A stretch of 64,000 bases of DNA from Candidatus Thalassarchaeum sp. Lineage in GTDB: Archaea; Thermoplasmatota; Poseidoniia; Poseidoniales; Thalassarchaeaceae. The position numbers and the translations under genes were made by a program. Where the stretch lies: NCBI GenBank assembly GCA_016777225.1, contig JADHRW010000002.1, forward strand, positions 257,284 to 321,283, in the 5' to 3' direction. Positions within the stretch are counted from its first letter, which is position 1, and every line of letters begins with the position of its first letter. Under the pieces are notes generated by a model. The model searched no databases and was not told where the DNA came from. It worked only from the letters and a program-made list of their open reading frames with translations. Below are positions 814 to 47,566 of this stretch, piece by piece.

Positions 814-3477
814 CTAAGAGGTAGAAGGCTGAAGATCTTCATCTTTCCACCATTCAGGCCTCTCGCCAAGATCAGTATCTGGATCTTCTTCTTCCCATAT
901 CTCGCCATCTTTAATTCGTCCTTCTAGAACTCTGTCGATCTCATCTTCATCTATAAAAATCAACATTATTACTGTAGCCATAGTTAAGACAGCCCCTAAG
1001 TAAATCGCCGTAGAGTAATCAAATATTGCAATCATTCTTCCAGTCATGGTGTAAGCAAATACTCCTGATAAATTAAATAATGACATGTATGCAGTAAATT
1101 GAGTCCCACCAACTTTACTCCACGTAAGCCTCATGGTCAATGATATAACACAAATCCAAGCAATTCCAGCGATAAAAGCCTGAAGAATAAGGAAAGTTGT
1201 CATTATGGTAGTATTGGTCCACAAAGGCTCTAGGAATGCTAGACAGGCATTTGCGAAAGCAAGTGCTAAAAAGAACACCATTGCAACTCTTCTTGTTCCA
1301 AAGCGATCACCCAAAAATCCACCAATTATCTGACCAAACATTGCTCCAAATACAACTATTCCACCAACTATACCATTATACTTTTGTTGTGACCAACCGG
1401 CACCATTAATGAAGATATCAAATGTAATTGGGACCACAAAGTAATACAAATCAGCCAACAGACAAAGTCCAATTAATAAGAAGGCAGATCTGACAGAAAA
1501 TGCTTTGACAAGATAAAACGAAGTTCTGGCTACGGTGTTCTTAGTCCCTACAGGCAATACTGAAAATGGATTGGGGACTTGTGGTAAAGTAGGGCCTTCA
1601 TTACCCAAGTATTTCATAATAAAATTAAATGAGAATAGTAATAGCGCTATGGACAAACAGACATAACTAATTGGATTAGTAATCTTCCTTATATCGGCAC
1701 CAAACGACCAATCAATAGAAAATACATCAATAGCAAATCCAGTAAACCATATTGAAAGACCTATTATTGTAAAGAATGCTATGATGGAAATACGCGCTTC
1801 GGAAACGCTGTATCCTACATTCTTAGCAGTCATGAACTTTTCCTCATCAATCCAAGGAGTTTCTGTTTCATCATCATCTATGGCTTCTTCATTAGATTCT
1901 GAATCTATAAGGATTGCATCTACTTTTGACCATGGGAATAACTTAATTCCTGGTTTTTCTCTCAAAGTAAGGGGTATCCACATAATTAACAATAGTAGAG
2001 CTAATTGTGCTATAATAACTCCTGAAATACCAATTACACCAATGAGAACCCCTAATCCGGCACCTCCAATAATTATTCCAAGCCTCTTGGCAGCGAACAT
2101 GAACCCATTTACTTTAGCCACCTCATCTGGTTGAAGAATCTCTACAGCTAGGGCGTCTGTAGCAACATCTTGTAGAGATGCAAATATATTATGAACAAAT
2201 AATACTCTAGTTACTAGATCTACTTGCTCATTAAGATCGTCAACAAGAATCAAACTTCCTAGTGTCAATGCCATTCCAGCTTGAGCGAAAAGCACCCACT
2301 GTCTTCGAGGTCCATATTTCTCAATAAATATAGCATCTACAACAGGGCCCCAAATCCACTTAAATGTCCAAGGAAGAGCTACTGTTGCGAATAATATTGC
2401 AATATCTTCTACAGGGGTTCCGTTGTCAATTAGATAAGCAGCAAATGTAACACTGGCAAATCCCCAAGGAAGTCCTTGGGCGAAGTACATCAAACAAAGT
2501 GTTACTACTCTACGTGTTTTATTTTCAGTTAATGCTCCACCCTTTCTCCATTCTTTTGAGGCTTTTTTAGTACCAGAGATTGCTTCAGGACCCCAGATTG
2601 TTGGATTAATTTTATTCAAACTGTTTGAAGTCCAATTACCCATATCAAATGGTTCCGAAGATTCTTGTTTTGACATCCAATCTTCACGATATGCAACCCA
2701 TCCCAAAAGAGCCATTACTGCAAGGAATGGAATAATAAATAAAATTGGACCAAAAGATGTTTTACCCAAATTAGCTTCTGAATCTAATAATGAAACATAG
2801 ATTGGGAACTCAGCATAAACATCGCCAGGAGAACCTCCCTCATCGGAATAATACATCCTAAAACTACCAGAGCAATCTTGATCAATCGGTGCGCCGGGGA
2901 AAGGGGGTTCACATAGAGGACCTCCTTGGGCAGGAACCGAATAAGAAACTGTAATTGTTGTAGAGGTATCTTTCGACCAACTCTGGAAAGAATCACTTAC
3001 AACAATATCCCAGTTAGTAGTGAAATCATTACCATTGTTAACTGAGTTAGCAGGCTCTGTATGCTGAGAAATCTCTTCATCACCTCTGAGGAGTGTCAGT
3101 GTTAAATCACATTCTGCTCCACCACAATTTCCAGATTCGATATTAAATTTCATCCTAACAGATATTGTTTCATTAAGTTCAAGAATGAAGCCTTCAGAAA
3201 ATCCTGTTTGTAGTTCACAAGAGAAATCTACTACTACATCTTGACCTTCAGGGAATATTATCTCTCCATAACCTTCTGATGCAGAGCCTTGGGATAGATT
3301 ATCAAAATTATTCCAGCAATCCTCTAAATTCTCAGAACCCCAGAAATACATGTATGGATCATCATTGGTAGGATAATTCTCAACTGAATCAGATTGAGCA
3401 GTAACGGGCATAGACAAATAACTGAATGTTAATAGTAACACTACGCCAATAGTTAGACTTCGACGTGTGGATTGCAT
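814..3477 (-). CDS. MFS transporter (AmpG/acetyl-CoA transporter-like) with N-terminal secreted ectodomain
   Basis: The 887-residue protein has an unusual layout. Residues 1-27 are a signal peptide ending near VTAQS. Residues 28 to about 240 form an extracytoplasmic, Cys-containing beta-rich domain. A single helix follows at about 245-263, and then a 12-helix MFS body that starts near YFAQGLPWGFASVTF at about residue 330. That YFxQGLP opening is typical of the AmpG/SLC33-like branch, which moves muropeptides or acetyl-CoA in other organisms. An acidic cytoplasmic loop at about 530-550 splits the two six-helix bundles, and the tail is acidic. Family members are usually 400-550 residues, so the ectodomain is an addition. 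The substrate cannot be inferred. The gene looks monocistronic. Confidence 0.8.
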   Translation of the reverse strand: MQSTRRSLTIGVVLLLTFSYLSMPVTAQSDSVENYPTNDDPYMYFWGSENLEDCWNNFDNLSQGSASEGYGEIIFPEGQDVVVDFSCELQTGFSEGFILELNETISVRMKFNIESGNCGGAECDLTLTLLRGDEEISQHTEPANSVNNGNDFTTNWDIVVSDSFQSWSKDTSTTITVSYSVPAQGGPLCEPPFPGAPIDQDCSGSFRMYYSDEGGSPGDVYAEFPIYVSLLDSEANLGKTSFGPILFIIPFLAVMALLGWVAYREDWMSKQESSEPFDMGNWTSNSLNKINPTIWGPEAISGTKKASKEWRKGGALTENKTRRVVTLCLMYFAQGLPWGFASVTFAAYLIDNGTPVEDIAILFATVALPWTFKWIWGPVVDAIFIEKYGPRRQWVLFAQAGMALTLGSLILVDDLNEQVDLVTRVLFVHNIFASLQDVATDALAVEILQPDEVAKVNGFMFAAKRLGIIIGGAGLGVLIGVIGISGVIIAQLALLLLIMWIPLTLREKPGIKLFPWSKVDAILIDSESNEEAIDDDETETPWIDEEKFMTAKNVGYSVSEARISIIAFFTIIGLSIWFTGFAIDVFSIDWSFGADIRKITNPISYVCLSIALLLFSFNFIMKYLGNEGPTLPQVPNPFSVLPVGTKNTVARTSFYLVKAFSVRSAFLLIGLCLLADLYYFVVPITFDIFINGAGWSQQKYNGIVGGIVVFGAMFGQIIGGFLGDRFGTRRVAMVFFLALAFANACLAFLEPLWTNTTIMTTFLILQAFIAGIAWICVISLTMRLTWSKVGGTQFTAYMSLFNLSGVFAYTMTGRMIAIFDYSTAIYLGAVLTMATVIMLIFIDEDEIDRVLEGRIKDGEIWEEEDPDTDLGERPEWWKDEDLQPSTS

Positions 3478-3530
3478 AAGTTGTGGGATGATTGGTGACG
3501 TTTGAGTGTTTACCCGATAGGTGTGATAAA

Positions 3531-4409
3531 TTATTTGTCAGAAACTATGCGCATTCCTTGCTCCTCATAATCCCAATCAATAATTTCCCAACCTTCTTTT
3601 TCTAAATTCTCAATAACACTCTTTCTAGAAACAGGCGAACAAAGTAAACCTACAGTACCTCCTGCACCAGCACCTAATGCTTTCCAAGCAATTACAGACT
3701 TAGATTCAACTAATGGATTAATTATTGAATGGAAAGGTTCGTGTAATGAAGGATCCATCAAATCTACACCCTCACAGCTATCTCTCAGAGACTCAACAAC
3801 CAACTCTCTTCTATCTCTTTGAATCCCATCAGACATTTTCCTTGCAGCAGCTCTAATTTTATGTAATCCATTTATGACATCTTCATCGCCGGAAGCATAT
3901 CTTTCCCATATCGAGGTATGTAATTCACCAGAATTATGCTCAATTTTAGAATCTGCAATTATCAAATGCTTTTTCAACCAATTTTTTGATGATTTCATGG
4001 GTTCAAAAGGAAGAATCTCGACACTGTCACCAATAAACATTAGATGGTTAAAACCACCATGTGCAGAGGCCCATTGATCTTGGCGGCCGCCTTTATTCTC
4101 TAATATTGATTCAAATTGAAAAGCCATTTCTGCAATTTTCTCTGGAGATTTATTATGTCCTAATATAGTCGCAATAAGGCCTACATTTAATGCACCACTA
4201 GTACCCAAACCAGAACCACTTGGTACCTCACTTGAATATTCTACTTTTATCCTACCAGATTCATCTTTTTCCATCGTAGCATGGATGTATTTATTTATTG
4301 TAAAGTTAACCACTTCTCCACCAAAATCAGTACAATATGGATTGACATCAGTCCATCCCCCTGCTAGATCTACACGGACTGGAACTATGACTTCGAAGCG
4401 TTCGACCAT
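3531..4409 (-). CDS. GHMP-family sugar kinase (HddA/fucokinase-like)
   Basis: At 292 residues this is a normal length for a small-molecule GHMP kinase. The N-terminus carries RVDLAGGWTDVNPY, the substrate-binding start of the D-glycero-D-manno-heptose 7-phosphate kinase/L-fucose kinase subgroup. The ATP-binding motif 2, PSGSGLGTSGAL, lies at about 64-75. The GGRQDQWASAHGG segment matches the sugar-kinase acidic loop, and GAGAGGTVGLL near residue 247 is motif 3. It likely phosphorylates a sugar or sugar phosphate, perhaps for nucleotide-sugar synthesis. It is divergent from the riboflavin genes across an 86-bp gap. I cannot choose between heptose-7-phosphate and fucose or galactose as substrate. 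Confidence 0.85.
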   Translation of the reverse strand: MVERFEVIVPVRVDLAGGWTDVNPYCTDFGGEVVNFTINKYIHATMEKDESGRIKVEYSSEVPSGSGLGTSGALNVGLIATILGHNKSPEKIAEMAFQFESILENKGGRQDQWASAHGGFNHLMFIGDSVEILPFEPMKSSKNWLKKHLIIADSKIEHNSGELHTSIWERYASGDEDVINGLHKIRAAARKMSDGIQRDRRELVVESLRDSCEGVDLMDPSLHEPFHSIINPLVESKSVIAWKALGAGAGGTVGLLCSPVSRKSVIENLEKEGWEIIDWDYEEQGMRIVSDK

Positions 4410-4495
4410 GAATGACCCGAGACTCGGTTACATGAGAACCCTCCGCTAAAGTCTAATCGTTTGACCGAAAATAACCCATATGAGTACCTCCTCCG

Positions 4496-5215
4496 ATGTG
4501 TATGGCTGACGCAGTAGATGATGCAATCTTGGCATTTTCTGAAGGAAAACCGGTAATGGTCTTTGACTCAGATTTTAGAGAAAAAGAAACTGACTTATTA
4601 TGGCCCGCTACAGCAGCAACACCAGCTGTAATGAGGCGTCTGAGAATTGATTGTGGTGGTTTACTATTCTTAGCAATAGGTGATGAAATAGGTCAAATGT
4701 TTGACCTACCATGGTTACAAGATTTACACACACACAAGCAATTAGTAAACGATAACCCAGTATTGTCTCATTTAATCACAAATGATTTGCAGTATGATAC
4801 CAGATCTGCATTCACTTTATCTATTAATCATCGAGATACATACACAGGAATTACAGATAGAGATAGGTCATTAACTACAAGAAGATTTGGAGAATTAGCG
4901 GGTGAATTGATGGAAAAATCAATCAAAGGTGAAGAAGCCTACAAATCACTAGGTAATGAATTCCGCACTCCAGGTCACATACCTGTATGTAGAGAATCAC
5001 CAGGTGGTTTAACTGCCAGACAGGGACATACAGAATTAGCAGTGGCTATTGCTAGACTTGCAGGACATGTCCCCGCTACAATTGGGGCTGAAATGCTCCA
5101 ACCTGATGGAGATGGTGCACTTTCAGTAGAAGACGCAAGAATCTATGCTGCTAAACACGATATACCAATGATTACAGGTGATGATTTAATCAGAGCCCTA
5201 AACATAGATAAATAA
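4496..5215 (+). CDS. ribB: 3,4-dihydroxy-2-butanone 4-phosphate synthase
   Basis: RibB converts ribulose 5-phosphate to 3,4-dihydroxy-2-butanone 4-phosphate plus formate, the four-carbon branch of riboflavin synthesis. The 239-residue protein shows the acidic Mg-binding FDSDFREKETD segment early, corresponding to the DDExRENEGD loop of bacterial enzymes in divergent form. It also has the RDRSLTTRRFG segment, the FRTPGHIPVCR segment that binds the substrate phosphate, and GLTARQGHTELAVAIARLAG. No GTP cyclohydrolase II domain is fused. It is first in a four-gene flavin cluster. Start ATG 4496 gives MCMADAV; a second ATG at 4502 is equally possible. Confidence 0.93.
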   Translation: MCMADAVDDAILAFSEGKPVMVFDSDFREKETDLLWPATAATPAVMRRLRIDCGGLLFLAIGDEIGQMFDLPWLQDLHTHKQLVNDNPVLSHLITNDLQYDTRSAFTLSINHRDTYTGITDRDRSLTTRRFGELAGELMEKSIKGEEAYKSLGNEFRTPGHIPVCRESPGGLTARQGHTELAVAIARLAGHVPATIGAEMLQPDGDGALSVEDARIYAAKHDIPMITGDDLIRALNIDK

Positions 5216-5251
5216 ATAAAAATAGATTGAAATATTATTAGAGGAATTAAA

Positions 5252-5710
5252 ATGGTTCGTGTAATGGCAGTAGGTGTTTTTGATTTACTTCATGCGGGCC
5301 ATCTACATTATGTTGAACAAGCTAAGTCCTTAGGAGACGAACTAATTGTTGTTGTTGCACATGACGATACTGTACGTAAGCAAAAGCATGAACCTGTGAC
5401 AAATCAAGAACTGAGAAGAAGAATGGTTGAAGGATTGAAACCAGTTGATACAGCGATAGTAGGCAACCCTCCTAGTGAACCGATATTTGATATTTTAAAC
5501 ATTGTAAAACCAGATATTATTGCTCTAGGATATGATCAAAAACATTCACGAGACTCAATAAAGAGTGGACTGGAGGACAATGGCTGGGGACAAGTGCAGG
5601 TCATTCGAGTAGAAGGTCTAGCAGATGATTTAGATGGAACACGTAAAATAATTGCGAGAATACTTAGTTTGTGGTCTGGAGAGACCGGCGGCCCCTACGA
5701 GGAAGATTGA
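5252..5710 (+). CDS. ribL: Archaeal FAD synthetase (cytidylyltransferase-like)
   Basis: A 152-residue nucleotidyltransferase. It has the GVFDLLHAGHLHYVEQAKSLG signature with the HxGH motif of the glycerol-3-phosphate cytidylyltransferase superfamily, and a C-terminal RTRKI-like segment seen here as GTRKIIARI. In archaea this small fold supplies FAD synthetase (RibL), which adenylates FMN. Placement directly between ribB and riboflavin synthase supports that role over a lipid or sugar cytidylyltransferase. An AGAGGAATT ribosome-binding site sits about 8 nt before ATG 5252. The stop is one base before the next start, indicating translational coupling. Confidence in the FAD role comes largely from context. 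Confidence 0.88.
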   Translation: MVRVMAVGVFDLLHAGHLHYVEQAKSLGDELIVVVAHDDTVRKQKHEPVTNQELRRRMVEGLKPVDTAIVGNPPSEPIFDILNIVKPDIIALGYDQKHSRDSIKSGLEDNGWGQVQVIRVEGLADDLDGTRKIIARILSLWSGETGGPYEED

Positions 5711-5711
5711 G

Positions 5712-6317
5712 ATGTATACAGGAATTGTTGCAGGCACTGCACCAGTCGTAGAAATTATAGACGGAGATATTATTCGCAGTTTTACAATTAATTTAGATGG
5801 ATATATAGATGGCTTACAAATAGGCGCAAGTGTAGCTCTAGATGGAGTATGTATGACAGTTGTTTCTATAGATGGTGCTCTTGTTCGATTTGATGCGATA
5901 GAGGAGACACTCAGTCGCACAACTTTAGGGCGATTAGAAGTTGGTTCAATAGTTAATATAGAAAGATCACTCAAAATGGGAGATGAATTAGGAGGTCATA
6001 TGATTTCAGGACATGTATGGATGGCCGCAAAAATTATTGAAAGAAAAGAAAGAGGTGAAGGTACTGATTTCTTAATCGAAAATCCACAAGAGGCGAGACC
6101 ATATATTCTTGAAAAAGGTTTTATTTCGATAGATGGAATGTCTTTAACAATTGGAAAAATTACAGAGAATAATTTCTCATTACACATCATACCTGAAACA
6201 TTGAGAATTACAACAATTGGTGGAAAAAAAGTAGGTGACTATGTTAATATTGAAATTGATTCTCGAACTCAAGCAGTAGTAGATACAATTCGAAGAAGTA
6301 TGGAGGCGAGTAAATGA
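5712..6317 (+). CDS. ribE: Riboflavin synthase, bacterial/eukaryotic trimeric (alpha-chain) type
   Basis: This enzyme dismutates two 6,7-dimethyl-8-ribityllumazines to riboflavin. The 201-residue protein opens with MYTGIV and has two repeated lumazine-binding domains. The first includes GVCMTVVSI and GGHMISGHVW. The second includes KGFISIDGMSLTIG and ends with a short C-terminal trimerisation helix. Many archaea instead use an unrelated pentameric riboflavin synthase derived from lumazine synthase, so the bacterial-type enzyme next to archaeal ribL is notable. A longer frame opens at 5652 inside ribL, but ATG 5712, one base after the ribL stop, matches the family N-terminus exactly. The stop overlaps ribH by an ATGA. 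Confidence 0.95.
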   Translation: MYTGIVAGTAPVVEIIDGDIIRSFTINLDGYIDGLQIGASVALDGVCMTVVSIDGALVRFDAIEETLSRTTLGRLEVGSIVNIERSLKMGDELGGHMISGHVWMAAKIIERKERGEGTDFLIENPQEARPYILEKGFISIDGMSLTIGKITENNFSLHIIPETLRITTIGGKKVGDYVNIEIDSRTQAVVDTIRRSMEASK

Positions 6318-6709
6318 AGATTGCAGCAGTATGTGGTTCATTCCACAAAGAGGAAATTCAAAAAATGCTTGAATATGCCACAGAGGAGGCAAATTCAAAG
6401 AATTCAGAAATATTTGAGATAGTATGGGTACCTGGATCTATGGAAGTACCATTAGCTCTAGAACGTCTTTTAGAAAGAAATGATATTGATGCCGCTATTA
6501 CCTTAGGAATTATTGAACGAGGCGAAACTAAACATGGTCTAGTTATGGGGCAAGCAGTTATTAGTGCTATTATTGAATTACAAATAAAACATAACAAACC
6601 AATTGGATTAGGAATTATTGGTCCTGGTGCAGAAGCGCATCATATTGAACCTAGATTAGAGCCTCATGCAAGAGCCGCTGTTGCAGCAGTAATTACAATG
6701 TTTGAATAA
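6314..6709 (+). CDS. ribH: 6,7-dimethyl-8-ribityllumazine synthase
   Basis: Lumazine synthase condenses the ribB product with the pyrimidine intermediate. The 131-residue protein has the expected size and order. An N-terminal strand ends in CGSFH, followed by WVPGSMEVPLALERLL (substrate site), an AITLGIIERGETKHG loop with the catalytic His and the phosphate-binding segment, and then PIGLGIIGPGAEAH. The start codon overlaps the riboflavin synthase stop by four bases, so the two genes are translationally coupled. Together with ribB and ribL this covers four steps. The pyrimidine branch (GTP cyclohydrolase, deaminase/reductase) is not in the window. Confidence 0.95.
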   Translation: MKIAAVCGSFHKEEIQKMLEYATEEANSKNSEIFEIVWVPGSMEVPLALERLLERNDIDAAITLGIIERGETKHGLVMGQAVISAIIELQIKHNKPIGLGIIGPGAEAHHIEPRLEPHARAAVAAVITMFE

Positions 6710-7718: not shown

Positions 7719-8891
7719 ATGACTGAAAATATTACTGATAGGAGTTTAACTACTAATCAGAAAGCAAGATTTGCTAGACATATAATGTTGCCACAGGTTG
7801 GTGAAGAGGGGCAGAAAAAGATTATTTCATCTTCTGTATTAGTGGTAGGTGCAGGAGGTTTAGGTTCACCCGTATTGATGTATTTAGCTGCAGCCGGTAT
7901 TGGTAAAATCGGAATTATTGATGATGATATAGTTGATATTACAAATTTACAACGTCAAATCATACATTCAACTTCATCTATCGGAGAATTAAAGGTAGAT
8001 TCAGCTAAAAAAAGAATATCTCAAATAAATCCTGATATCGAGGTTGAAATATTTAATTTCAGATTAGGAATAGAGAATATTGAAAATATAGTCAAAAATT
8101 ATGACATTGTCGTAGACGGTACGGATAATTTCGCTACAAGATATACAATTAGTGATTGTTGTGAAATATTAGGGAAACCTTGGGTTTTTGGCAGTATCCA
8201 TCGATTCGAAGGTCAAGTTTCTGTTTTTAATCTAAATGGTAGTCCGAATTATAGAGATCTATTTCCAAAAGCACCGCCTCCAGAATTAGCTCCAAATTGT
8301 GCAGAAGCCGGTGTATTGGGAGTTTTACCAGGTATGATTGGTTCATACCAGGCTAATGAAGTTCTGAAAATAGTCCTAGATATTGGAGATACACTAGATA
8401 GTGAATTATTATTAATTGATGCATTATCAATGAATATTAGAAAACTAAGTTATACTGCAGATAAAGATAGACAAAAAATTACTGAGCTAACAGAAGAAGC
8501 AATATCTTGTGCAGTAAGTCAAGATGAGGAACAATCATTAGATGCCCCACAAATCGAAGAAAACATGAAGGAAATCAATCCATCAGATTATCTTAAAAAA
8601 GTAGAACAAGGTTGGAATCCATTTTTCTTAGACGTTAGGGGGGAAGCTGAAGAGATGATTGTTAGCCTTCCAAATACTGATCTTAGAATTACACATACAG
8701 AAATACCCTCTAGAATTGAAGAAATACCAACTGACAGAGATATTGTAGTTTACTGCAGAAGTGGAATGAGATCTGCCATGGTAGTTAAATTTCTTGAAAA
8801 CTCGGGTGATTATAATAATGAATTATATAATCTATCAGGAGGAATTCATCTGTGGTCGAATACAGTAGATTCAAGTATACCTAAATATTAG
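7719..8891 (+). CDS. MoeB/ThiF-type E1-like adenylyltransferase fused to rhodanese (Uba4-like)
   Basis: Residues 1 to about 245 are an E1-like domain. It has a GAGGLGSPVLMYLAAAG nucleotide loop, the DDD...NLQRQI segment, VDGTDNFATRY, and CAEAGVLGVLPGMIG. Residues about 280-390 form a rhodanese domain with the active-site loop YCRSGMRSA. Such fusions adenylate the C-terminal Gly-Gly of MoaD/ThiS/SAMP-like proteins and load sulfur for molybdopterin, thiamin or tRNA thiolation. The molybdenum enzyme genes further along need such a supply. The usual zinc-binding CxxC pairs appear lost: the normal CYRC position reads NYRD, and no C-terminal CPxC is present. The start at 7719 is preferred over 7689, which lies inside trxB. 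Confidence 0.9.
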   Translation: MTENITDRSLTTNQKARFARHIMLPQVGEEGQKKIISSSVLVVGAGGLGSPVLMYLAAAGIGKIGIIDDDIVDITNLQRQIIHSTSSIGELKVDSAKKRISQINPDIEVEIFNFRLGIENIENIVKNYDIVVDGTDNFATRYTISDCCEILGKPWVFGSIHRFEGQVSVFNLNGSPNYRDLFPKAPPPELAPNCAEAGVLGVLPGMIGSYQANEVLKIVLDIGDTLDSELLLIDALSMNIRKLSYTADKDRQKITELTEEAISCAVSQDEEQSLDAPQIEENMKEINPSDYLKKVEQGWNPFFLDVRGEAEEMIVSLPNTDLRITHTEIPSRIEEIPTDRDIVVYCRSGMRSAMVVKFLENSGDYNNELYNLSGGIHLWSNTVDSSIPKY

Positions 8892-9154
8892 CCTTTATTT
8901 TTCAATATTATGGTTTTATTTATCGCAGTCATTCATTTAATTGTGGTATGAAGATATTTTGAGCCAATATTGTCAACTATATGTGGCATTTAACATTAAT
9001 TAAGGTAAAAAAATTAGCAGTCTACTTTTTAATAATGGTAAAAAGGAAAAAAGAGAGAGTTTAAGGGCGTAAAATACCACAATTACGGAAGAAATACCAC
9101 ATTTGTACTCTATGAAGCGATTAGTTGTAGTACTTATACAGATTCCGTAGAGAT
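8892..9154. promoter_or_regulatory. 263-bp AT-rich intergenic region with spaced AAATACCACA repeats
   Basis: No gene or tRNA is seen here. Two identical 10-mers AAATACCACA lie at 9072-9081 and 9092-9101, 20 bp apart, which is about two helical turns on the same face. An inverted related copy (TTGTGGTAT) lies at 8941-8949, and a weaker one (TGTGGCAT) near 8982. The cluster sits 53-83 bp upstream of the E1 gene and could be an operator or activator site. The regulator is unknown. Confidence 0.4.
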
Positions 9155-12034
9155 ATGACTATAGCGCGACAGGGCATTTGGCAGTGCCCTGATTGTAATA
9201 ATCATGAAGTTTGGAAGACTAGAGATGAGAGCACAAACCAGATTGACAGAAAATGCACTAATTGCAATAAAAGAGTGAGAATGACACTAGATCGCTCAGA
9301 TTCAGGGAAAGGTAGGAAAAGAGGATTTCGGATATGGGAGAGAGATTTGAGTATCGATTTCGCAGAAATCATAGAGGAGGCAAAGAGGAGGAATTACAAT
9401 CAATCTAATGAATCGGAATACGTTGAAATCACAGCACCTTCTGAAAAAAAACCTAGTCAAGAAGAACTTTCACCGATTTGGGGAGCTAATTGGTCTCCGA
9501 AAAAACCATTGAGATTCACTAAAAAGATTGACGAATTAAACGTGCGTAAAGAAATTTTACGTTTCGTAACTGAAAGACATGATGGGTATTTGGAATTTAT
9601 AGCAAAAGAATGGAATAAACAGAAACCACCACTTAATTTTACAGGCAATACATATCATGAGTTCTCAATAAGATTCTGTAGAGAACTTTCTAAATCATTG
9701 AAAGAGAGAATATGGACGCCTGAACTAGCGATAATAGGCAGAGATGAAGTAATCCCTAGAAGAAAATCAGACTTGTTTTTAGAAAGAAGGAATATTCGTT
9801 TTTTAAGAGATATTTCATTGTGCCTAAGAAGAATAGCCCACTCATCAAGCGCTGATTTAGATATGCATTTACTATGGCAAAGGTGGATGATTAGGACTAG
9901 AGCAATTGATGAACACTTGAAAGATCTTTTCAGTAATGGAATTAGCACCCCTGATGGGAAGAAATTCGGAGGTAAAGGATTTAGATCAACTTGGCAAGAA
10001 GGAGTAGTTGGTTGTGCCACACCACTTACAAGAGCAATTGACCTCCAACCTGATCAAAAGTATCGAGCAGATATAATCGCACCGATGATTAGAGATGTAG
10101 GGCTAGCTCTTGCTGTAGGTCAAACTCCTTTAGAGATATTTGCCGCTCAAATGGGGAAGTCAGGATCGTACATGGATGGAGGGAATATTGACTCAGGAGG
10201 TAGAGACTTGCATATTGGAAATTGGGAAAAGGGAGTTCTTCCACCAACGGCACCTCTACCGATAGCAAGTGCAACCGCCACTGGAGTTGCTTTAGCCGCA
10301 AATTTGTTAGAAATTGAAAGATTCCATCTGGCACCCGTAGGAGAAGGAACTAGTAGTAATGGAGAGTTTTGGGAGGCTATGAATTTAGCAGGAGCAAGAG
10401 GATTGCCAATAGCATTTATGATTCAAAATAATCAAATCGCCTTAGACACCTTCACAGTGGGGCAATCAGGAGCTGAAACCTTTGGAGATAAAGGGTATGC
10501 AATGGGCATTCCTTCATGGTCTATAGATGGATCAGACCCTTTACAATTCCATGCATCTACAGCAACTTCTAGAGAATATGCATTAGACGGAGGAGGTGCG
10601 ACCTTGATACATGTAGAAACAATGAGAGGATGTGGACATGCACATCACCACGATGATCTATATCTTGGTTCAGTAACGGGGAACCCCCCCGGATATGTAG
10701 GTAGAGATTTATTGAAATATTGGGCCGAAAAAGATCCTTTGCCAAATCATAGAGAATATTGTATATCCTTAGGAGCGAGTGAAAAGCAACTATTAGCCAT
10801 AGAAAAGGAAGAGCAGTATTATGTCGACAGTGCAAGGAATGAAATGGAAAAAATGCCTTGGCCAGAGGGATATACAGTAACCAAGGGTATTACATCAAAA
10901 CTTGATGCAGAATCTCATTCACAACAATATGACAGATTTGAGAAAGAGACTAGAGATATCACCCCAGGGCCACTTAAGGATGGAGAATTATCAATACAGT
11001 TTTCTGATGCTTCGAATTCTTCAACATATAGTAGAGCTATTCAGAATGCGATGGTTGCTTTAGCAGAGAAATACGGTGAAAAAATAGTATTCATGGGAGA
11101 AGATATGGAAGTAGCAGGTGCTTTTGGAATGAATATTCCTCTAAAGGCAAAAGGACATTCTGATAAATTATTAGATATGCCTCTCTCAGAGTCGATAATA
11201 ATTCATTCAGCGACAGGAGCTGCTCTCGGAGGCATGAGGCCAATGGCAGAAATACAGTTTGGAGGATTCGCCGCACTGGCAATGAATGCCTTGGTGAATA
11301 ATGCTGCACAATTAAGATGGAGATGGGGAGCAGAAGTCCCCCTAACAGTTAGGATACCTCTCGGTGCGAAAATAAGAAGTGGGCCGTTTCATGCAAACAT
11401 GATTGAATCATGGTTTATGAACGATCCAGGGCTAACGATAGTATTCCCGAGTAATCCTCAAGATGCATACGACTTACTCATAGAATCACATGAAATGAAT
11501 GACCCAGTGGTTTTCCTTGAGCACTTGGGATTATATGGTTTAGGTGGTGGCAAGACTGGTTGGGGCGATTCGATTAATCAAGTGATTGATACAGAATCAG
11601 TCAAGAAGAGATTAGAAAATAATATATCATCTATCGGTCAAGCGAAAATAATCAGAGGAGGAAGTGACTTGACAATTATAACATGGGGTGCAATGGTACA
11701 TGTTGCCTTAAAAACTGCTGAAGAATTAGCAAAAGAAGATATTGAAATAGAGATAGTAGATTTGCGTACAATATTACCATTTGATTCAAGTACTTGTGTA
11801 GAATCAATTATGAGAACAAAGAAAATGATAGTACTCCAAGAGTCGCAATATACAGGAGGATTAGGACACACCGTTAGTAGCAGGATACTAGAAGAAACTT
11901 TTTGGGACATGGAATCTCCACCCGTAGTTATAGGAGCACTCGATACACCAGTTCCATTTTCACCAACATTGGAAGATCATACAATACCATCCGTAGATCT
12001 AGTATCAAGGCATGTTAGAAGAATGTGTAAATAA
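9155..12034 (+). CDS. Fused 2-oxoacid dehydrogenase E1 (alpha-beta in one chain) with N-terminal zinc ribbon
   Basis: The thiamin-diphosphate E1 component decarboxylates pyruvate or branched-chain 2-oxoacids in the 2-oxoacid dehydrogenase complex. The 959-residue chain has a zinc-ribbon-like start (C11, C14, C34, C37). A basic linker of about 160 residues follows. The E1-alpha domain, about 230-600, has the ThDP motif GEGTSSNGEFW...QNNQ and an HAHHHDD segment. The E1-beta domain, about 625-959, has FMGEDMEVAGAFG and GGMRPMAEIQFGGF. E1-alpha and beta are normally separate genes of about 330-400 residues each. No E2 or E3 gene is nearby. Start ATG 9155. The substrate (pyruvate or branched-chain acid) is uncertain. 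Confidence 0.9.
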   Translation: MTIARQGIWQCPDCNNHEVWKTRDESTNQIDRKCTNCNKRVRMTLDRSDSGKGRKRGFRIWERDLSIDFAEIIEEAKRRNYNQSNESEYVEITAPSEKKPSQEELSPIWGANWSPKKPLRFTKKIDELNVRKEILRFVTERHDGYLEFIAKEWNKQKPPLNFTGNTYHEFSIRFCRELSKSLKERIWTPELAIIGRDEVIPRRKSDLFLERRNIRFLRDISLCLRRIAHSSSADLDMHLLWQRWMIRTRAIDEHLKDLFSNGISTPDGKKFGGKGFRSTWQEGVVGCATPLTRAIDLQPDQKYRADIIAPMIRDVGLALAVGQTPLEIFAAQMGKSGSYMDGGNIDSGGRDLHIGNWEKGVLPPTAPLPIASATATGVALAANLLEIERFHLAPVGEGTSSNGEFWEAMNLAGARGLPIAFMIQNNQIALDTFTVGQSGAETFGDKGYAMGIPSWSIDGSDPLQFHASTATSREYALDGGGATLIHVETMRGCGHAHHHDDLYLGSVTGNPPGYVGRDLLKYWAEKDPLPNHREYCISLGASEKQLLAIEKEEQYYVDSARNEMEKMPWPEGYTVTKGITSKLDAESHSQQYDRFEKETRDITPGPLKDGELSIQFSDASNSSTYSRAIQNAMVALAEKYGEKIVFMGEDMEVAGAFGMNIPLKAKGHSDKLLDMPLSESIIIHSATGAALGGMRPMAEIQFGGFAALAMNALVNNAAQLRWRWGAEVPLTVRIPLGAKIRSGPFHANMIESWFMNDPGLTIVFPSNPQDAYDLLIESHEMNDPVVFLEHLGLYGLGGGKTGWGDSINQVIDTESVKKRLENNISSIGQAKIIRGGSDLTIITWGAMVHVALKTAEELAKEDIEIEIVDLRTILPFDSSTCVESIMRTKKMIVLQESQYTGGLGHTVSSRILEETFWDMESPPVVIGALDTPVPFSPTLEDHTIPSVDLVSRHVRRMCK

Positions 12035-41541: not shown

Positions 41542-42444
41542 TCATTTCTTAATCATGCTTGCAGGTAAAATTACATGGAACCAAGAAGGTTTTGGCATAT
41601 CTCCTTCTTCTGTAAAAAATGAACGAGCAAATATAGAAATCATATCTATTAATAATACTACTATGAAAATAATAATTAAATATGCAATTACTTTATCATA
41701 TTGTAAAAACTTAAGGTATAAATTGATGTAATATCCAATACCTCCTGCCCCTACAATACCTATTACAGTACCATGTCTAAAATTATATTCAAACATGAAA
41801 ATTGCCTGAGAAATTAAATCATTTGCAGATTCAGGAATAACTACTTGAAACGCTGTTTCAAATCTAGAAAGCCCCATGGCTTCAGCAGCATAAAGTGGAG
41901 TTTTATTCATACCTTCTATCGCTTCATACTGAAGTTTACCTAAATATCCGATTGTATAAACAGTCATTGCAAGGACACCAGACAAAGGACCAAAACCCAC
42001 CAATATTACGAAAAATATTGCCCATATAATGCTCGGCAGACTTCTAAATGCTGCTAGTATAAACCTAGAACTGTACGACAACCACCAAGGATTAAGATTA
42101 CGTGCTGCAAGTAGAGAAATAGGTAGCGATAATATCATGCCAAAAACAGTTGAAACAAATGCTATCTTAAGTGTTTCAAGTAAACCTATCCAAGCAGTTG
42201 AGCAGGTGAAATCAATAAGTGGATAGGCGGTACAAATTGGGTAAGCTTGTGGTTCTATAACACTCCAATCGGGAGGCCATAGAGATTCTCTAATAAAAAC
42301 AAAAAGGTTGTCAATACTTCCGGACAATCTTCCCCAATCATCAACCATTCCATTGAAAACGACAATAGAAGAGATAAATATTAAAAATGGAGTAGCTTTT
42401 ATCAAGAAATTACCTCTAATCGATAAAATCTCATTGAATTTCAT
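41542..42444 (-). CDS. PhnE-type ABC permease, probable iron-import partner of the transferrin-like lipoprotein
   Basis: The 300-residue integral permease has about six helices and the BPD_transp_1 core. PhnE-like features are LPISLLAARNLNP, the FRSLPSIIWAIFFVILVGFGP stretch, and the cytoplasmic EAA loop region YEAIEGMNKTPLYAAEAMGLSRFE with VVIPES, then FRHGTVIGIVGAGGIGYYI. These are normally annotated as phosphonate permeases. Here the solute-binding protein is transferrin-like and the promoter carries an iron-box-like palindrome, so I infer an iron substrate. The start overlaps the ATPase stop by four bases. Phosphonate transport remains the alternative. Confidence 0.85.
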   Translation of the reverse strand: MKFNEILSIRGNFLIKATPFLIFISSIVVFNGMVDDWGRLSGSIDNLFVFIRESLWPPDWSVIEPQAYPICTAYPLIDFTCSTAWIGLLETLKIAFVSTVFGMILSLPISLLAARNLNPWWLSYSSRFILAAFRSLPSIIWAIFFVILVGFGPLSGVLAMTVYTIGYLGKLQYEAIEGMNKTPLYAAEAMGLSRFETAFQVVIPESANDLISQAIFMFEYNFRHGTVIGIVGAGGIGYYINLYLKFLQYDKVIAYLIIIFIVVLLIDMISIFARSFFTEEGDMPKPSWFHVILPASMIKK

Positions 42445-43178
42445 ATTTTAACCTCCATCGCAGTGGCCTCTGTAATGAAAGGGTTTACACGTCCATCATC
42501 AATTACTAATAAACGATCAGCCATTGACTTCGCTCGGGATACGTCATGTTCAACTACAAGTAGCGCGGCTCCACTTTGACGTACATATTGAGTAACTGCT
42601 GTCAATACCATATCCATAGTATCTTCATCTAATTCACTTAGAAATTCATCAGCCATTATCAAAGAAGGTCGTTGAGCAAGAGTTCTAGCAGTAGCAACTC
42701 TTCTTTGTTGACCGCCAGAAAGTCTCCTTATTGGTTCTCTTAATTTATCTGAAAGACCCATTGAATTAATAGCCTCAGAAGCATATTTCTTAGCCAAAGA
42801 AGAAGGTAGAATAGACCACAAAGACTTGTTGTGACCCGCATTGGCGCCTATCATGACATTATGCATAACACTAGTATGGCGAATCAACCCAAGACGCTGA
42901 GGCACATATCCTAGGATTCCTTTAGAAGGTTTAGATGGACTAACTGCACCACAAACCTCTACAGAACCTGAAATAGGTCGAACTAAACCCGCAATTGTTC
43001 TCAAAAGAGTTGTTTTTCCAACTCCAGAAGGACCTGCAATTGCGACTATTTCGCCGGGAAAAATTTCTAGATTTGGGATCTTGACTAGTGGCTCCGTTTT
43101 TTTATAGCCGATTTCAACATCTAATAGCCTCACAATTGGATTTCTATAAACTTCAATTTCTTTCGAATCTCCAGTCAT
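42441..43178 (-). CDS. PhnC-type ABC ATPase, probable iron-import partner
   Basis: The 245-residue ATPase has Walker A GPSGVGKTTLLRTIAGLVRP, a Q loop in LGYVPQRLGLIRHTSVMHNVMIG, signature LSGGQQRRVATARTLAQRPS, Walker B LIMADEFLSELD and an H-loop VVEHDVSRA. The RHTSVMHNVMIG block and the length are characteristic of the PhnC branch. It is the first gene of a two-gene unit with the permease, 145 bp downstream of the lipoprotein gene. It carries its own palindromic operator at 43206-43223 and a hairpin between it and the lipoprotein gene, so it may be expressed at a different level. Confidence 0.9.
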   Translation of the reverse strand: MTGDSKEIEVYRNPIVRLLDVEIGYKKTEPLVKIPNLEIFPGEIVAIAGPSGVGKTTLLRTIAGLVRPISGSVEVCGAVSPSKPSKGILGYVPQRLGLIRHTSVMHNVMIGANAGHNKSLWSILPSSLAKKYASEAINSMGLSDKLREPIRRLSGGQQRRVATARTLAQRPSLIMADEFLSELDEDTMDMVLTAVTQYVRQSGAALLVVEHDVSRAKSMADRLLVIDDGRVNPFITEATAMEVKI

Positions 43179-43322: not shown

Positions 43323-45434
43323 TTAATCTTCGATATCAAACTTATCGCTATAGTAAGAAGATATACCTGGGATATTACTGATTAATTCAGAATAACTCCC
43401 CATATGCTCTTGAGATGTAACTCTTACTAACCCTGGAGTATTGAGTACATTTTCTAAAATCTCAGAACCACAAGTATTCTTTGGAGAATCTTCATCGATT
43501 ACATGTACGGAAATGTCGTAACAACCAGTATATGTGTTCCCCATAACAGTATAATTCTCAACATAGGTTTCATAATTTAATGTCATTAAAGCATTAAGAA
43601 TCGCAGTCCTAGTTTGAACATCTAAAGACTCGGGATTATACATTATCGGATGACTAGGAGCTTGTCCAAACGTAGGCAGTGCGACATATTGATCTCTCTC
43701 TAAACACCAATCTTCATTGTCTTCAGAGACCTCATTACCACAATACGAATCAATGGTGCTATCTTTAGCAAAGGCAACATCCCCTGTACCATCTGATAAA
43801 CATTTCACAGCCCCTGAATAACTATAATATGGAGTCCCTGAATCAGGAATAGATGCATCCGAATTAAAGAATCCATAGATAGTATTTCTTAATGACTCGA
43901 TATCATCGCTATCTCCGATTACAGGGGCGTATTCATTAGCAATTAGATAACCCATTGGCAAAAGCATACCTGCTGATTTTAACCAGCCCGTATGACATGA
44001 AGTTTTACCCTCTAAAAGAGTAAATGGATCAGTTTCCGGATCATCATCTAGGTGGGCTAATGCGATTTCACTATCTGCCTTCACCCAAGCGTGGGCATTG
44101 TAGTATGTACGGCCATCTGATTTCTGATCGGCTGCCATGGCAGCTAACCCATATTCTTTCCAACCTACCCATGCTGCCCCGCCATCCATGAATGCAATAT
44201 CTGCATTACCAAATCTCAATGCTTCGATAATAGCTCCTTCTGAATCTACGCTATAAAGTTCAACTGTTACCCCTAAAACTTCCTCTAGGTAATCTGCTAA
44301 AATTTGTGGATTTTCATCAATATTGTCATAATCCGCCTTAATTTCGTAAGCAATTCTGACTTTCTCTATAGTGATTGAGACAGTTCCATTAATAGTGAAC
44401 TTATCATTATAATAAGCAGATATCCCTGGTATATTGGAGATTAATGATGAATAACTACTCAAATGATCTTCGGCATTCGTTGCGACAATTCCAGGTGTAT
44501 TAAGGACATTGTTCAATATGCTACTAGCCTCTGAATCAGCACTCATTTCTACAAGTACTTCTGTAATTAGATCTGCGAGATTTGAGTCCATTAATTCAGG
44601 ATTATACATTACAGGATGACTAGGGGATTTACCAAATGCAGGGAGAGCAACATATTGATCTCTGGAAAGACACCAATCGCTATTTTCTTGTAATACTTCA
44701 TTGTTACAATAAGTATCCACAGTATTATCTTTAGCGAAAGCTACATCTCCAGTTCCATCGGATAAACATTTAATTGCTCCTTCATAACCATAATATGGAG
44801 TTCCTGAATCTGGTATCGAAGCATTCTCATTAAAATATTCAAAAATTGTATTTCTAATTGTTTCTACGTCATTAGGGTCACCAACAACATTAGCATAACC
44901 ATGTCCAATTAGAAAACCCATAGGGAGTAACATTCCAGCTGATTTAAGCCATCCAGTATGGCAAGAAGTCTTACCAGAAAGTAGTGCAAATGGGTCAGTA
45001 TATGGATCATCATCTAGGTGTGCTGATGCCATTTCACTGTCTGCTCTAACCCATGCATGAGCATTATAGTAAGTACGGCCATCGCTTTTCTGATCAGCAC
45101 CTAATGCACCTAAATCATACTGTTGCCATCCGACCCATGCAGCACCGCCATCCATTATTCCAATATCTGCATTACCGAATCTCAGGGCCTCAATCATTGC
45201 CCCTTCAGAGTCAACACTATATAGCGAAACATCATAATTTAATTTCTCAGTAAGATAATCTGCTAACTGCTGAGGATTTTCATCAATATTGTCATAATCG
45301 GATTGGATTTCATAGGCAATTATAAGGCTACCCAATTTCCCACCTTTTTCATCATTATTATCTAGGCATCCAGCAAGAGCAGTTGTTAAGAAAAGCATTG
45401 AAATTAAGTATGTCATCATTTTTTTGTTATTCAT
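43323..45434 (-). CDS. Bilobal transferrin-like iron-binding lipoprotein (solute-binding protein)
   Basis: The 703-residue lipoprotein (lipobox ALAGC23) holds two tandem homologous lobes, about 38-345 and 360-700. Each lobe carries transferrin signatures. The lobe-one ligands are D95 (MDGG), Y122/Y123 (TYYNAHAW), Y217 (YYGYEGA) and H273 (PSHP). The lobe-two ligands are D417, Y444/Y445, Y539 and H595. The anion-site motif CHTGWLKSAG places T160 and K164, then T482 and K486, where vertebrate transferrins have Thr and Arg. KCLSDGTGDVAFAKD follows Y217 and Y539. C158 and C223 (and C480 and C545) match a conserved transferrin disulfide. Default annotation would be PhnD-like; transferrins share that fold. 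AAGGTGA at 45440-45446 supports ATG 45434. It likely binds ferric iron with carbonate outside the cell for the ABC importer. Confidence 0.85.
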   Translation of the reverse strand: MNNKKMMTYLISMLFLTTALAGCLDNNDEKGGKLGSLIIAYEIQSDYDNIDENPQQLADYLTEKLNYDVSLYSVDSEGAMIEALRFGNADIGIMDGGAAWVGWQQYDLGALGADQKSDGRTYYNAHAWVRADSEMASAHLDDDPYTDPFALLSGKTSCHTGWLKSAGMLLPMGFLIGHGYANVVGDPNDVETIRNTIFEYFNENASIPDSGTPYYGYEGAIKCLSDGTGDVAFAKDNTVDTYCNNEVLQENSDWCLSRDQYVALPAFGKSPSHPVMYNPELMDSNLADLITEVLVEMSADSEASSILNNVLNTPGIVATNAEDHLSSYSSLISNIPGISAYYNDKFTINGTVSITIEKVRIAYEIKADYDNIDENPQILADYLEEVLGVTVELYSVDSEGAIIEALRFGNADIAFMDGGAAWVGWKEYGLAAMAADQKSDGRTYYNAHAWVKADSEIALAHLDDDPETDPFTLLEGKTSCHTGWLKSAGMLLPMGYLIANEYAPVIGDSDDIESLRNTIYGFFNSDASIPDSGTPYYSYSGAVKCLSDGTGDVAFAKDSTIDSYCGNEVSEDNEDWCLERDQYVALPTFGQAPSHPIMYNPESLDVQTRTAILNALMTLNYETYVENYTVMGNTYTGCYDISVHVIDEDSPKNTCGSEILENVLNTPGLVRVTSQEHMGSYSELISNIPGISSYYSDKFDIED

Positions 45435-45498
45435 ATATATCACCTTATTAAAATTTTTAGGGTCTCATAAAACTTCCGAGAGAGGGGGGTTATATTAA

Positions 45499-45516
45499 AT
45501 TTAGGTCAGCCTAAAT
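45499..45516. promoter_or_regulatory. DtxR/IdeR-like palindromic operator in divergent promoter
   Basis: ATTTAGGTCAGCCTAAAT is a perfect-arm dyad in the 134-bp region between the transferrin-like gene (minus) and the secreted protein gene (plus). The core AGGTCAGCCTAA is close to the known DtxR box AGGTTAGCCTAA. AT-rich TATA-like stretches flank both sides (TATATTAAA and AAATATAAAA), so a bound repressor could block both promoters. Confidence 0.6.
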
Positions 45517-45568: not shown

Positions 45569-47566
45569 GTGAAGACTACGTTCTCTAAGCAGGTTTTTTC
45601 ATTAATCATAATTTTAATGATAATTTTAATGACATATTCGCTACCTGAAAATAACACTACAATAGAAGAAGAAAACTCTCCGAAGTATCAATTAGGAGGA
45701 GGGGGTGGAAGCATTGAAGAAAGGTGTAGTTCAATTACTTTCGAAGACATCCTTCCTTACACACATGCACATTTTGACATTGTAATTGATGATGATTGGA
45801 ATTCCGCAGCAGTAGAAGCGCGTGCTTGGGTAAATGGAAGCAGTGTTGACGGATTGAGAGAATTGCTAGATACATATCTAGAAGAATTATACCCAAGTGG
45901 AGGAGATGGTTGGATTTCAACTGACGAAAAGTCAGCTGTTGAAGCGGTCGCATCGGAATGTATTGAATATGCATTGACAAGGATTGGTATGAGAGAAGCA
46001 GCACCGCACAGAGGAGGAGTTGGGTTAGATTGGAAGAATGCTACTTGGCAAGATGGAGTCATTATTGAAGAATGGAATTTAGTCCCGTCTAATCATGCAG
46101 ATATACGAGACTGTACAGCTATGGGTTCGAGTAATGATTGCGTAGAAGTACCAGTGTATCCAAACTCTGAAAGAGATTGTAACACACTTATCCAGACTAT
46201 TGAAGGAATTGATGAATGTAGATTAGAATTATGGATGAATGCGACGATGGTGATACCCAATATAGAGCAAGGAGATCAATTTACGCTTGCTTTCAATACA
46301 TCTAACATGACCAATGCAGTCCTAGATTTTACATTCCCAAATAATCCAGACTTAAGACTGGATATGTGGGAAGAATGTGAAGGGAGAGATGTTGAATTTG
46401 AGCCAACTACTCATGAAGATGCCCCTCTGAGAGGGACGTGTATAGGAGACGGTTCGTCCACTTATACATTTGAAAACATAGTAAATGAAGAAGTGAAGTA
46501 TACCTTAATTCCGCACAGAAGTATGGAAATGTGGCCAAGTGGAGAAGATATATTTGCAGACTTTACGACAGCACCTATACCTATTGATGAACCACCTACT
46601 TGGACTGAAATTGCTCCTAAAAATCAAGCCTGGTTCCCATCGCTAGAAAGTGGAGAAAAAATATGGGCAGACTGGAATAGCGTCTCTTCATGGTTTACTG
46701 ATGAAAATCCTATTTCACAATTACAAATTAACTGCGAAGGGACTGATTCACTGAATATTTATCAATCTACAGATAAATCATTCTGGGGGACCATAGAAGA
46801 AGCTGAGGTTGGTGAAGTTACATGCGAGGCAATAGATAATTCGGGACAAAGTTCAGGGAATAGAACGTGGCATCTAGGAGTGCCATTTTCAGTATCAACC
46901 TCAAATAATATTCTTTTGAACCCACACCCAATACTAATTGAATTGAATGAAGGATGGCCTGAATTAACTTTAGAATATGGATTTACACAGAGTGAGAATT
47001 TTAATTCTGGAACGATGGATACTGTATCTCTAACTTCAAGTGGAATTATGATGGTAGATTCATTAGGAATGATCCCTGGAAATGTCAATTTATGGGTCAG
47101 AACTTATGCAGAAAATGTATACTCGATAGATAAATTGTTTTATCTAGACATAATAAAAGAAAGTTCCCCACCTCTGATTAGTCTTTCTGAGTATGGCTGG
47201 GAAGTTGATACATGGAAAGCGCAGGGGCAATTTAGTGACCCTGATGGAGAAGAAGTTTTATTCTCATTATCTATAAACAATTTATCTGCAGGAAGTATAT
47301 CAGTTTCTGGCAATTCTTGGAGTACACCAATAATTAATTTCGGATTATGGGAAGAAGGCATCCATGAAGTGAAAATTATTGGTTGCGATATTTCTATGAA
47401 ATGTAACGATGTAATATTAATGGTCAATAATACCCATTTATATGAAAGTGATGAAATATCTCTCCCGCCAAGTCAAGATGATAACGGGTCATTACCAGGT
47501 CCAGGTATTGTTTTAACAATTTTATCTTTAACTATCGGTCTCATATACTCAACCCGACGCGATTGA
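45569..47566 (+). CDS. Large secreted surface protein sharing the iron-box promoter, function unknown
   Basis: The 665-residue protein starts at GTG 45569. It has a signal segment (about 8-24) and a low-complexity GGGGGS linker. A Cys-containing N-terminal domain follows, with several cysteines between about 180 and 280. The later Ig-like region has DNSGQSSGNRTW and a cadherin-like QGQFSDPDGEEVLFSLSINN stretch. A terminal helix is preceded by SLPGPGI and followed by YSTRRD. No enzymatic motif is seen. It is divergent from the transferrin-like gene with a single shared operator, so it may belong to the same metal-responsive set, for example as a surface receptor or binding scaffold (inference). 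Confidence 0.75.
   Translation: MKTTFSKQVFSLIIILMIILMTYSLPENNTTIEEENSPKYQLGGGGGSIEERCSSITFEDILPYTHAHFDIVIDDDWNSAAVEARAWVNGSSVDGLRELLDTYLEELYPSGGDGWISTDEKSAVEAVASECIEYALTRIGMREAAPHRGGVGLDWKNATWQDGVIIEEWNLVPSNHADIRDCTAMGSSNDCVEVPVYPNSERDCNTLIQTIEGIDECRLELWMNATMVIPNIEQGDQFTLAFNTSNMTNAVLDFTFPNNPDLRLDMWEECEGRDVEFEPTTHEDAPLRGTCIGDGSSTYTFENIVNEEVKYTLIPHRSMEMWPSGEDIFADFTTAPIPIDEPPTWTEIAPKNQAWFPSLESGEKIWADWNSVSSWFTDENPISQLQINCEGTDSLNIYQSTDKSFWGTIEEAEVGEVTCEAIDNSGQSSGNRTWHLGVPFSVSTSNNILLNPHPILIELNEGWPELTLEYGFTQSENFNSGTMDTVSLTSSGIMMVDSLGMIPGNVNLWVRTYAENVYSIDKLFYLDIIKESSPPLISLSEYGWEVDTWKAQGQFSDPDGEEVLFSLSINNLSAGSISVSGNSWSTPIINFGLWEEGIHEVKIIGCDISMKCNDVILMVNNTHLYESDEISLPPSQDDNGSLPGPGIVLTILSLTIGLIYSTRRD

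Follow-up and report, generated by a model that had tools for sequence, protein, structure and literature searches.

The window, by which we mean the whole analysed stretch of 64,000 nucleotides from Candidatus Thalassarchaeum sp., contains a gene for a lipoprotein that resembles both the animal transferrins and the binding proteins of phosphonate transporters, followed by genes for an ABC transporter. This raises the question to which family the protein belongs and which substrate the transporter handles.

Two lobes with transferrin-type site residues

The protein consists of a lipid-anchor signal and two lobes, and its features are as follows.

43323-45443, minus strand: coding sequence of a bilobal transferrin-like substrate-binding lipoprotein of 706 aa, start codon GTG at 45443 (ATG at 45434 possible)
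45366-45377, minus strand: lipobox LAGC (aa 23-26) with Cys26, read directly from the sequence
44367-45365, minus strand: lobe 1 (N-lobe, aa 27-359) with ligand equivalents D98, Y126, Y220 and H276, anion site T163 and K167, and Cys161/Cys226
43326-44366, minus strand: lobe 2 (C-lobe, aa 360-706) with D420, Y448, Y542 and H598, anion site T485 and K489, and Cys483/Cys548; AF2 pLDDT 91.9

The two lobes are 64% identical over 341 aligned columns (E = 3e-167), and each contains one copy of the motifs MDGG (aa 97 and 419), TYYNAHAW (aa 124 and 446), CHTGWLKSAG (aa 161 and 483), KCLSDGTGDVAFAKD (aa 225 and 547) and PSHP (aa 274 and 596). Human transferrin binds iron through D63, Y95, Y188 and H249, and T120 and R124 form its anion site. 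In a HMMER alignment to lactoferrin, the transferrin residues D63, Y95, T120, R124, Y188 and H249 correspond to D98, Y126, T163, K167, Y220 and H276 of lobe 1 and to D420, Y448, T485, K489, Y542 and H598 of lobe 2, Y126 and Y448 being the second tyrosine of TYY. By this alignment the Asp, Tyr, Tyr and His equivalents are complete in both lobes. At the anion site the Thr120 equivalent is kept and Arg124 is replaced by Lys, both here and in every intact lobe among the relatives, suggesting that anion handling may differ. Cys161/Cys226 and Cys483/Cys548 are equivalent to C118/C194 of transferrin. The initial annotation had described the tandem lobes with these motifs, their match in order to the transferrin ligands and anion site, the Lys at the R124 position, the cysteines of a conserved transferrin disulfide and the lipobox, all of which we could confirm. 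The residues it named are real; it had ended the open reading frame at ATG 45434, and its numbering is off by 3 relative to the 706-aa frame.

Homology to two protein families

The protein matches the Pfam Transferrin model (PF00405) with 138 bits against a cut-off of 20.3 (E = 5.6e-40) and, over the whole protein, scores slightly higher with the Pfam Phosphonate-bd model (PF12974), with 149 bits against a cut-off of 27. The NCBIfam models TIGR03431 (PhnD; 68 bits, cut-off 261) and TIGR01098 (103.8 bits, cut-off 112.05) stay below their thresholds. Among the Pfam matches of the protein there is none to Fea1 (PF07692) and none to an FbpA/FutA-type ferric substrate-binding protein. Lactoferrin is matched by HMMER at E = 5e-27, and the best 60 PDB sequence matches, obtained with either the single sequence or a lobe profile as query, are all members of the transferrin family (lactoferrin, serotransferrin, ovotransferrin, melanotransferrin, saxiphilin and inhibitor of carbonic anhydrase). 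A chance resemblance of motifs is ruled out by the PF00405 and lactoferrin E-values and by the invariance of the site residues among lobes. PF12974 found matches in 12 of 14 control genomes and PF00405 in none of the 14, indicating that the transferrin signal is not a by-product of homology to phosphonate-binding proteins.

The initial view of a transferrin hidden behind a phosphonate-binding annotation is only half right, because the protein is homologous to the phosphonate-binding family as well as to the transferrins. That view was to be given up if a phosphonate-binding model scored far above PF00405; the scores of 149 and 138 bits, together with best 60 PDB matches that all belong to the transferrin family, leave it standing. 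AlphaFold models reached a pLDDT of 91.9 for lobe 2 and 85.8 for the whole protein, and their best 50 PDB fold matches in Foldseek all belong to the transferrins. For a lobe, E is 4.4e-16, TM is about 0.6 and the rmsd lies at 6-9 A; these TM and rmsd values may stem from domains that are opened to another degree in the predicted structures. As far as the fold is concerned, the structural comparison suggested at the outset thus came out strongly for transferrin; the geometry of the ligands is not covered by it.

Operon, operator and proposed function

The bilobal gene is the first gene of an operon whose next genes encode an ABC ATPase and a permease of the PhnE type, and two putative operators are located in its promoter.

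42441-43178, minus strand: ABC ATPase, PhnC-like (TIGR02315, 139 bits, below the cut-off of 266)
41542-42444, minus strand: ABC permease of the PhnE family (TIGR01097, 226 bits, above the cut-off of 216.7)
45500-45515, minus strand: predicted DtxR/IdeR-type operator TTTAGGCTGACCTAAA, with no other exact copy in the genome, no binding data
45456-45471, minus strand: second predicted operator TTTATGAGACCCTAAA, one mismatch, 44 bp from the first, no binding data
45490-45499, minus strand: TATA-like element TTTAATATAA between both operators, inferred from direct reading of the sequence

In about 40 loci the genes for the binding protein, the ATPase and the PhnE-type permease lie side by side. In 60 genomes of the window's family, strong PhnE-type matches adjoin transferrin-like genes in those loci that were read, and the PF12974 matches listed fall within one- or two-lobed transferrin-like proteins. 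FeoB was found in none of 60 genomes. A divergent gene (45569-47563, plus strand), encoding a 665-aa protein without a Pfam match, accompanies the operon in about 35 loci.

The palindrome TTTAGG-N4-CCTAAA occurs exactly once in the 1.48-Mb genome of the window, where about 0.16 copies are expected, and this copy lies in the promoter of the bilobal gene. Its core, TTAGG-N4-CCTAA, lies within the published DtxR/IdeR consensus TTAGGTTAGCCTAACCTAA (PMC7762939). DtxR-family proteins are encoded in 56 of 60 genomes, and two are encoded in the window genome. Operator pairs 43-45 bp apart recur in relatives. Single-lobe genes have an operator upstream in 22-23 of 28 cases, Fea1 genes in 11 of 12 and bilobal genes in 8 of 23, compared to 0 of 85 control genes; these counts cover related loci and do not represent independent events. 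The bilobal genes without an operator include those located downstream of Fea1 on the same strand. A few copies lie inside genes and may have occurred by chance. In relatives, the operator is also present upstream of sufC (TIGR01978, 316 bits, cut-off 213), of an FdxA-type ferredoxin gene, of a gene for a peptidase-ZIP fusion and of the operon's own ATPase gene. The fusion, a peptidase-like protein joined to a ZupT-like (ZIP) metal transporter with the iron-type operator upstream, was seen in four loci (among them L223, positions 2048-4039). At five further loci the operator is flanked by sufC on one side and by a conserved divergent gene (about 165 aa) on the other; one copy of the latter was searched and gave no NCBIfam match. 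The operator and its regulon, which lie outside the region considered initially, form the strongest evidence for iron, although no binding data are available for the regulator.

We consider it very probable that the bilobal lipoprotein and its ABC partners form a DtxR-regulated ferric-iron importer with a transferrin-type binding protein. The homology to both families, the ligand residues, the fold, the conservation of the operon and the operator with its regulon rest on observation, whereas binding of Fe(III), the direction of transport and the identity of the repressor are inferred. Each lobe, a homologue of a transferrin lobe, would close like a two-domain clamp and bind one Fe(III) at the cell surface via Asp, two Tyr and His, while Thr and Lys would hold a synergistic anion, most likely carbonate. 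Fe(III) would then be handed to the PhnE-type permease and the PhnC-like ATPase encoded downstream, and a DtxR-type repressor is predicted to silence the operon under iron-replete conditions. That carbonate is the partner anion is a likely inference, made without biochemistry, and is held with less confidence because Lys replaces Arg124. The earlier proposal of a surface Fe(III)-carbonate binder agrees with the ligands, the family and the fold; it falls short in that the protein appears to be more than a surface binder, namely the substrate-binding protein of an ABC importer. Against an iron importer count the lack of binding data, the slightly higher score of PF12974 compared to PF00405, and the permease, which is a PhnE-family equivalog.

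The alternative that survives best, and which we still regard as unlikely, is that the protein binds metal in a form other than Fe(III)-carbonate; Fe(III) might, for instance, be held together with phosphate or citrate, or the metal might be Mn or yet another ion. In its favour are the Lys in place of Arg124, a distant bacterial relative that adjoins mntR and the ability of DtxR-family regulators to sense manganese in some cases; against it, the ligands are those with which transferrins bind Fe(III), and the regulon takes in Fe-S assembly and ferredoxin. Weaker still is the reading as annotated, in which the operon imports phosphonate, phosphite or phosphate and the likeness to transferrin reflects mere shared superfamily ancestry. 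It can draw on the PF12974 score of 149 bits, the PhnE equivalog permease, the PhnC-like ATPase and the description of the marine group II (MGII) core genome as including 'transport of phosphonates' (PMC6336850). The family cut-offs speak against it, since the PhnD and TIGR01098 models are not reached and PF00405 is silent in genomes with ordinary PF12974 proteins, as do the operator shared with sufC, ferredoxin and Fea1 and the absence of PhnJ (C-P lyase) from 60 genomes in a search that detected the E. coli control and left out other phosphonate-degrading routes; on these grounds we rejected a phosphonate transporter. That the bilobal protein is a cell-surface iron store or buffer instead of an import component is the least credible, since the lipid anchor, the two binding lobes and the animal and algal transferrins, which to our knowledge work without ABC partners, are outweighed by an ATPase and permease adjacency conserved in about 40 loci and by strong PhnE-type permease matches that adjoin these genes where the loci were read.

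Occurrence in marine archaea and comparison with known systems

In the ocean, growth is limited by iron, and marine group II archaea are abundant there. PF00405 matches were found in 81 of 99 genomes of the family, and homologues in 227 of 293 genomes of the class, which comprises marine group II/III archaea; outside the class, three were found among the genomes sampled from the phylum. Some 20% of genomes have no match, most of these being incomplete, and those relatives that bear a name belong for the most part to marine groups II and III. Because the PF12974 matches listed lie in transferrin-like proteins and the PhnE matches adjoin these, the phosphonate transport published as an MGII core trait (PMC6336850) is probably to be re-read as iron uptake by the importer described here. 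The 78 loci among the matches listed in the genome scan belong to marine archaea, save three with bacterial names. The homologues at these three loci, on contigs with the labels Flavobacteriaceae, Rhodobiaceae and Deltaproteobacteria, are of marine-archaeal type and cluster with archaeal sequences in the lobe tree; the contigs may be mis-binned or mislabelled. Viral carriage was considered as well, and no relative was present among viral contigs or phage records.

In an alignment of 24 lobes, the Tyr, Thr, Lys, Tyr and His positions are invariant and Asp is at least 90% conserved. The four cysteines are invariant in a comparison of 248 lobes, within which all 87 single lobes keep Tyr, Thr, Lys and Tyr, have Asp or Glu at the Asp position, and have His wherever it is readable (2 cells are X). 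Decaying lobes usually lose their ligands together: a non-redundant set of 117 lobes contains 26 changed lobes, 20 altered at 2-6 of the six positions and 6 at one. One of the more distant phylum members keeps all site residues and another has lost two. L166 (positions 1245-2207), from a more distant phylum member, matches both PF00405 and PF12974 and lacks the Tyr188 and Arg124 equivalents. A haloarchaeal homologue (32% identity), unannotated and split over two frames, is present on plasmid 2 of Natronococcus occultus (L245, positions 7752-8925), where it adjoins a metal-dependent regulator, an ABC ATPase and phnE. On a Pseudosulfitobacter plasmid (L246, positions 3857-6320), genes for a phosphonate-type binding protein, in which the PSH and GGY motifs are present and the Asp is missing, and phnE lie beside mntR and a cytochrome c peroxidase gene, which hints at further metal importers annotated as phosphonate transporters.

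A gene with the Fea1 domain PF07692, the domain of the diatom phytotransferrin ISIP2A (PMC7966952), adjoins 12 of 23 bilobal genes. Of 99 genomes, 35 encode Fea1, and each of these is also PF00405-positive (hypergeometric 1.4e-4, kinship ignored). In 11 of the 12 Fea1-adjoining bilobal proteins the C-lobe is without most of its ligands, and several Fea1 loci or genomes also encode an intact single-lobe protein. We infer that the Fea1 loci are a derived arrangement in which iron is bound by Fea1 and the single-lobe protein. No Fea1 match was found in the window genome, whose copy is of the intact type, and as Fea1 neighbours mark a derived sub-group in which 11 of 12 bilobal proteins have lost ligands, they provide only indirect evidence for this copy. 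Ferritin adjoins two single-lobe genes, a ferritin-like gene (PF00210) being located directly upstream of a single-lobe transferrin-like gene at L034 (positions 10934-11365) and at L036.

In a tree of 117 lobes, not rooted against animal transferrins, the N-lobe label changes at least four times on strongly supported branches, suggesting several gains or losses of the two-lobed form. The duplication inferred initially from the likeness of the lobes is lineage-specific as proposed, but not a single event, having occurred more than once in the clade. No earlier report of an archaeal transferrin or its ABC form was found in a partial literature search. A common origin of transferrin and ISIP2a among phosphonate-binding proteins has already been published (McQuaid 2018, as cited in PMC7676907). 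We suggest, as a tentative interpretation with somewhat less than even support, that prokaryotes possess complete transferrin iron sites in the binding proteins of ABC importers, that the archaeal form is the kind of phosphonate-binding-protein offshoot in which eukaryotic transferrin originated or from which it was acquired, and that two-lobed transferrins evolved repeatedly, independently in animals and in marine archaea. With a prokaryotic transferrin, its operon and its regulator now at hand, the descent of transferrin from ABC binding proteins, an idea already put forward for ISIP2a and transferrin (PMC7676907), becomes directly testable.

With the PhnD/phosphonate-binding proteins (PF12974, TIGR01098, TIGR03431) the archaeal protein shares the superfamily, the size of one lobe and the PhnC/PhnE-type partners, but it scores below the NCBIfam cut-offs, carries transferrin ligands and has an iron-type operator instead of a phosphate context. 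FbpA/FutA proteins have the role proposed here, capture of Fe(III) for an ABC importer, and belong to a different family of substrate-binding proteins. The phytotransferrin ISIP2A/FEA1 (PF07692) is a functional analogue from a marine, low-iron context whose Pfam family adjoins related operons, yet that family is a different one and is not matched by the window protein. A further comparison is the transferrin-like protein of Dunaliella (cited in PMC7676907). It has in common with the archaeal protein that it is a membrane-associated transferrin for cellular iron uptake, but it is eukaryotic and is not known to have an ABC partner. Animal transferrins and lactoferrin (PF00405) share with the archaeal protein the Asp, Tyr, Tyr and His ligands in order, the T120 equivalent, the C118-C194 cysteines, the lobe fold and two lobes per chain, whereas the archaeal protein is lipid-anchored, encoded with an ABC ATPase and permease, and has Lys for Arg124; because its lobes are 64% alike yet only about 20% identical to transferrins, its two-lobed form appears to be of independent origin, from a duplication separate from the animal one.
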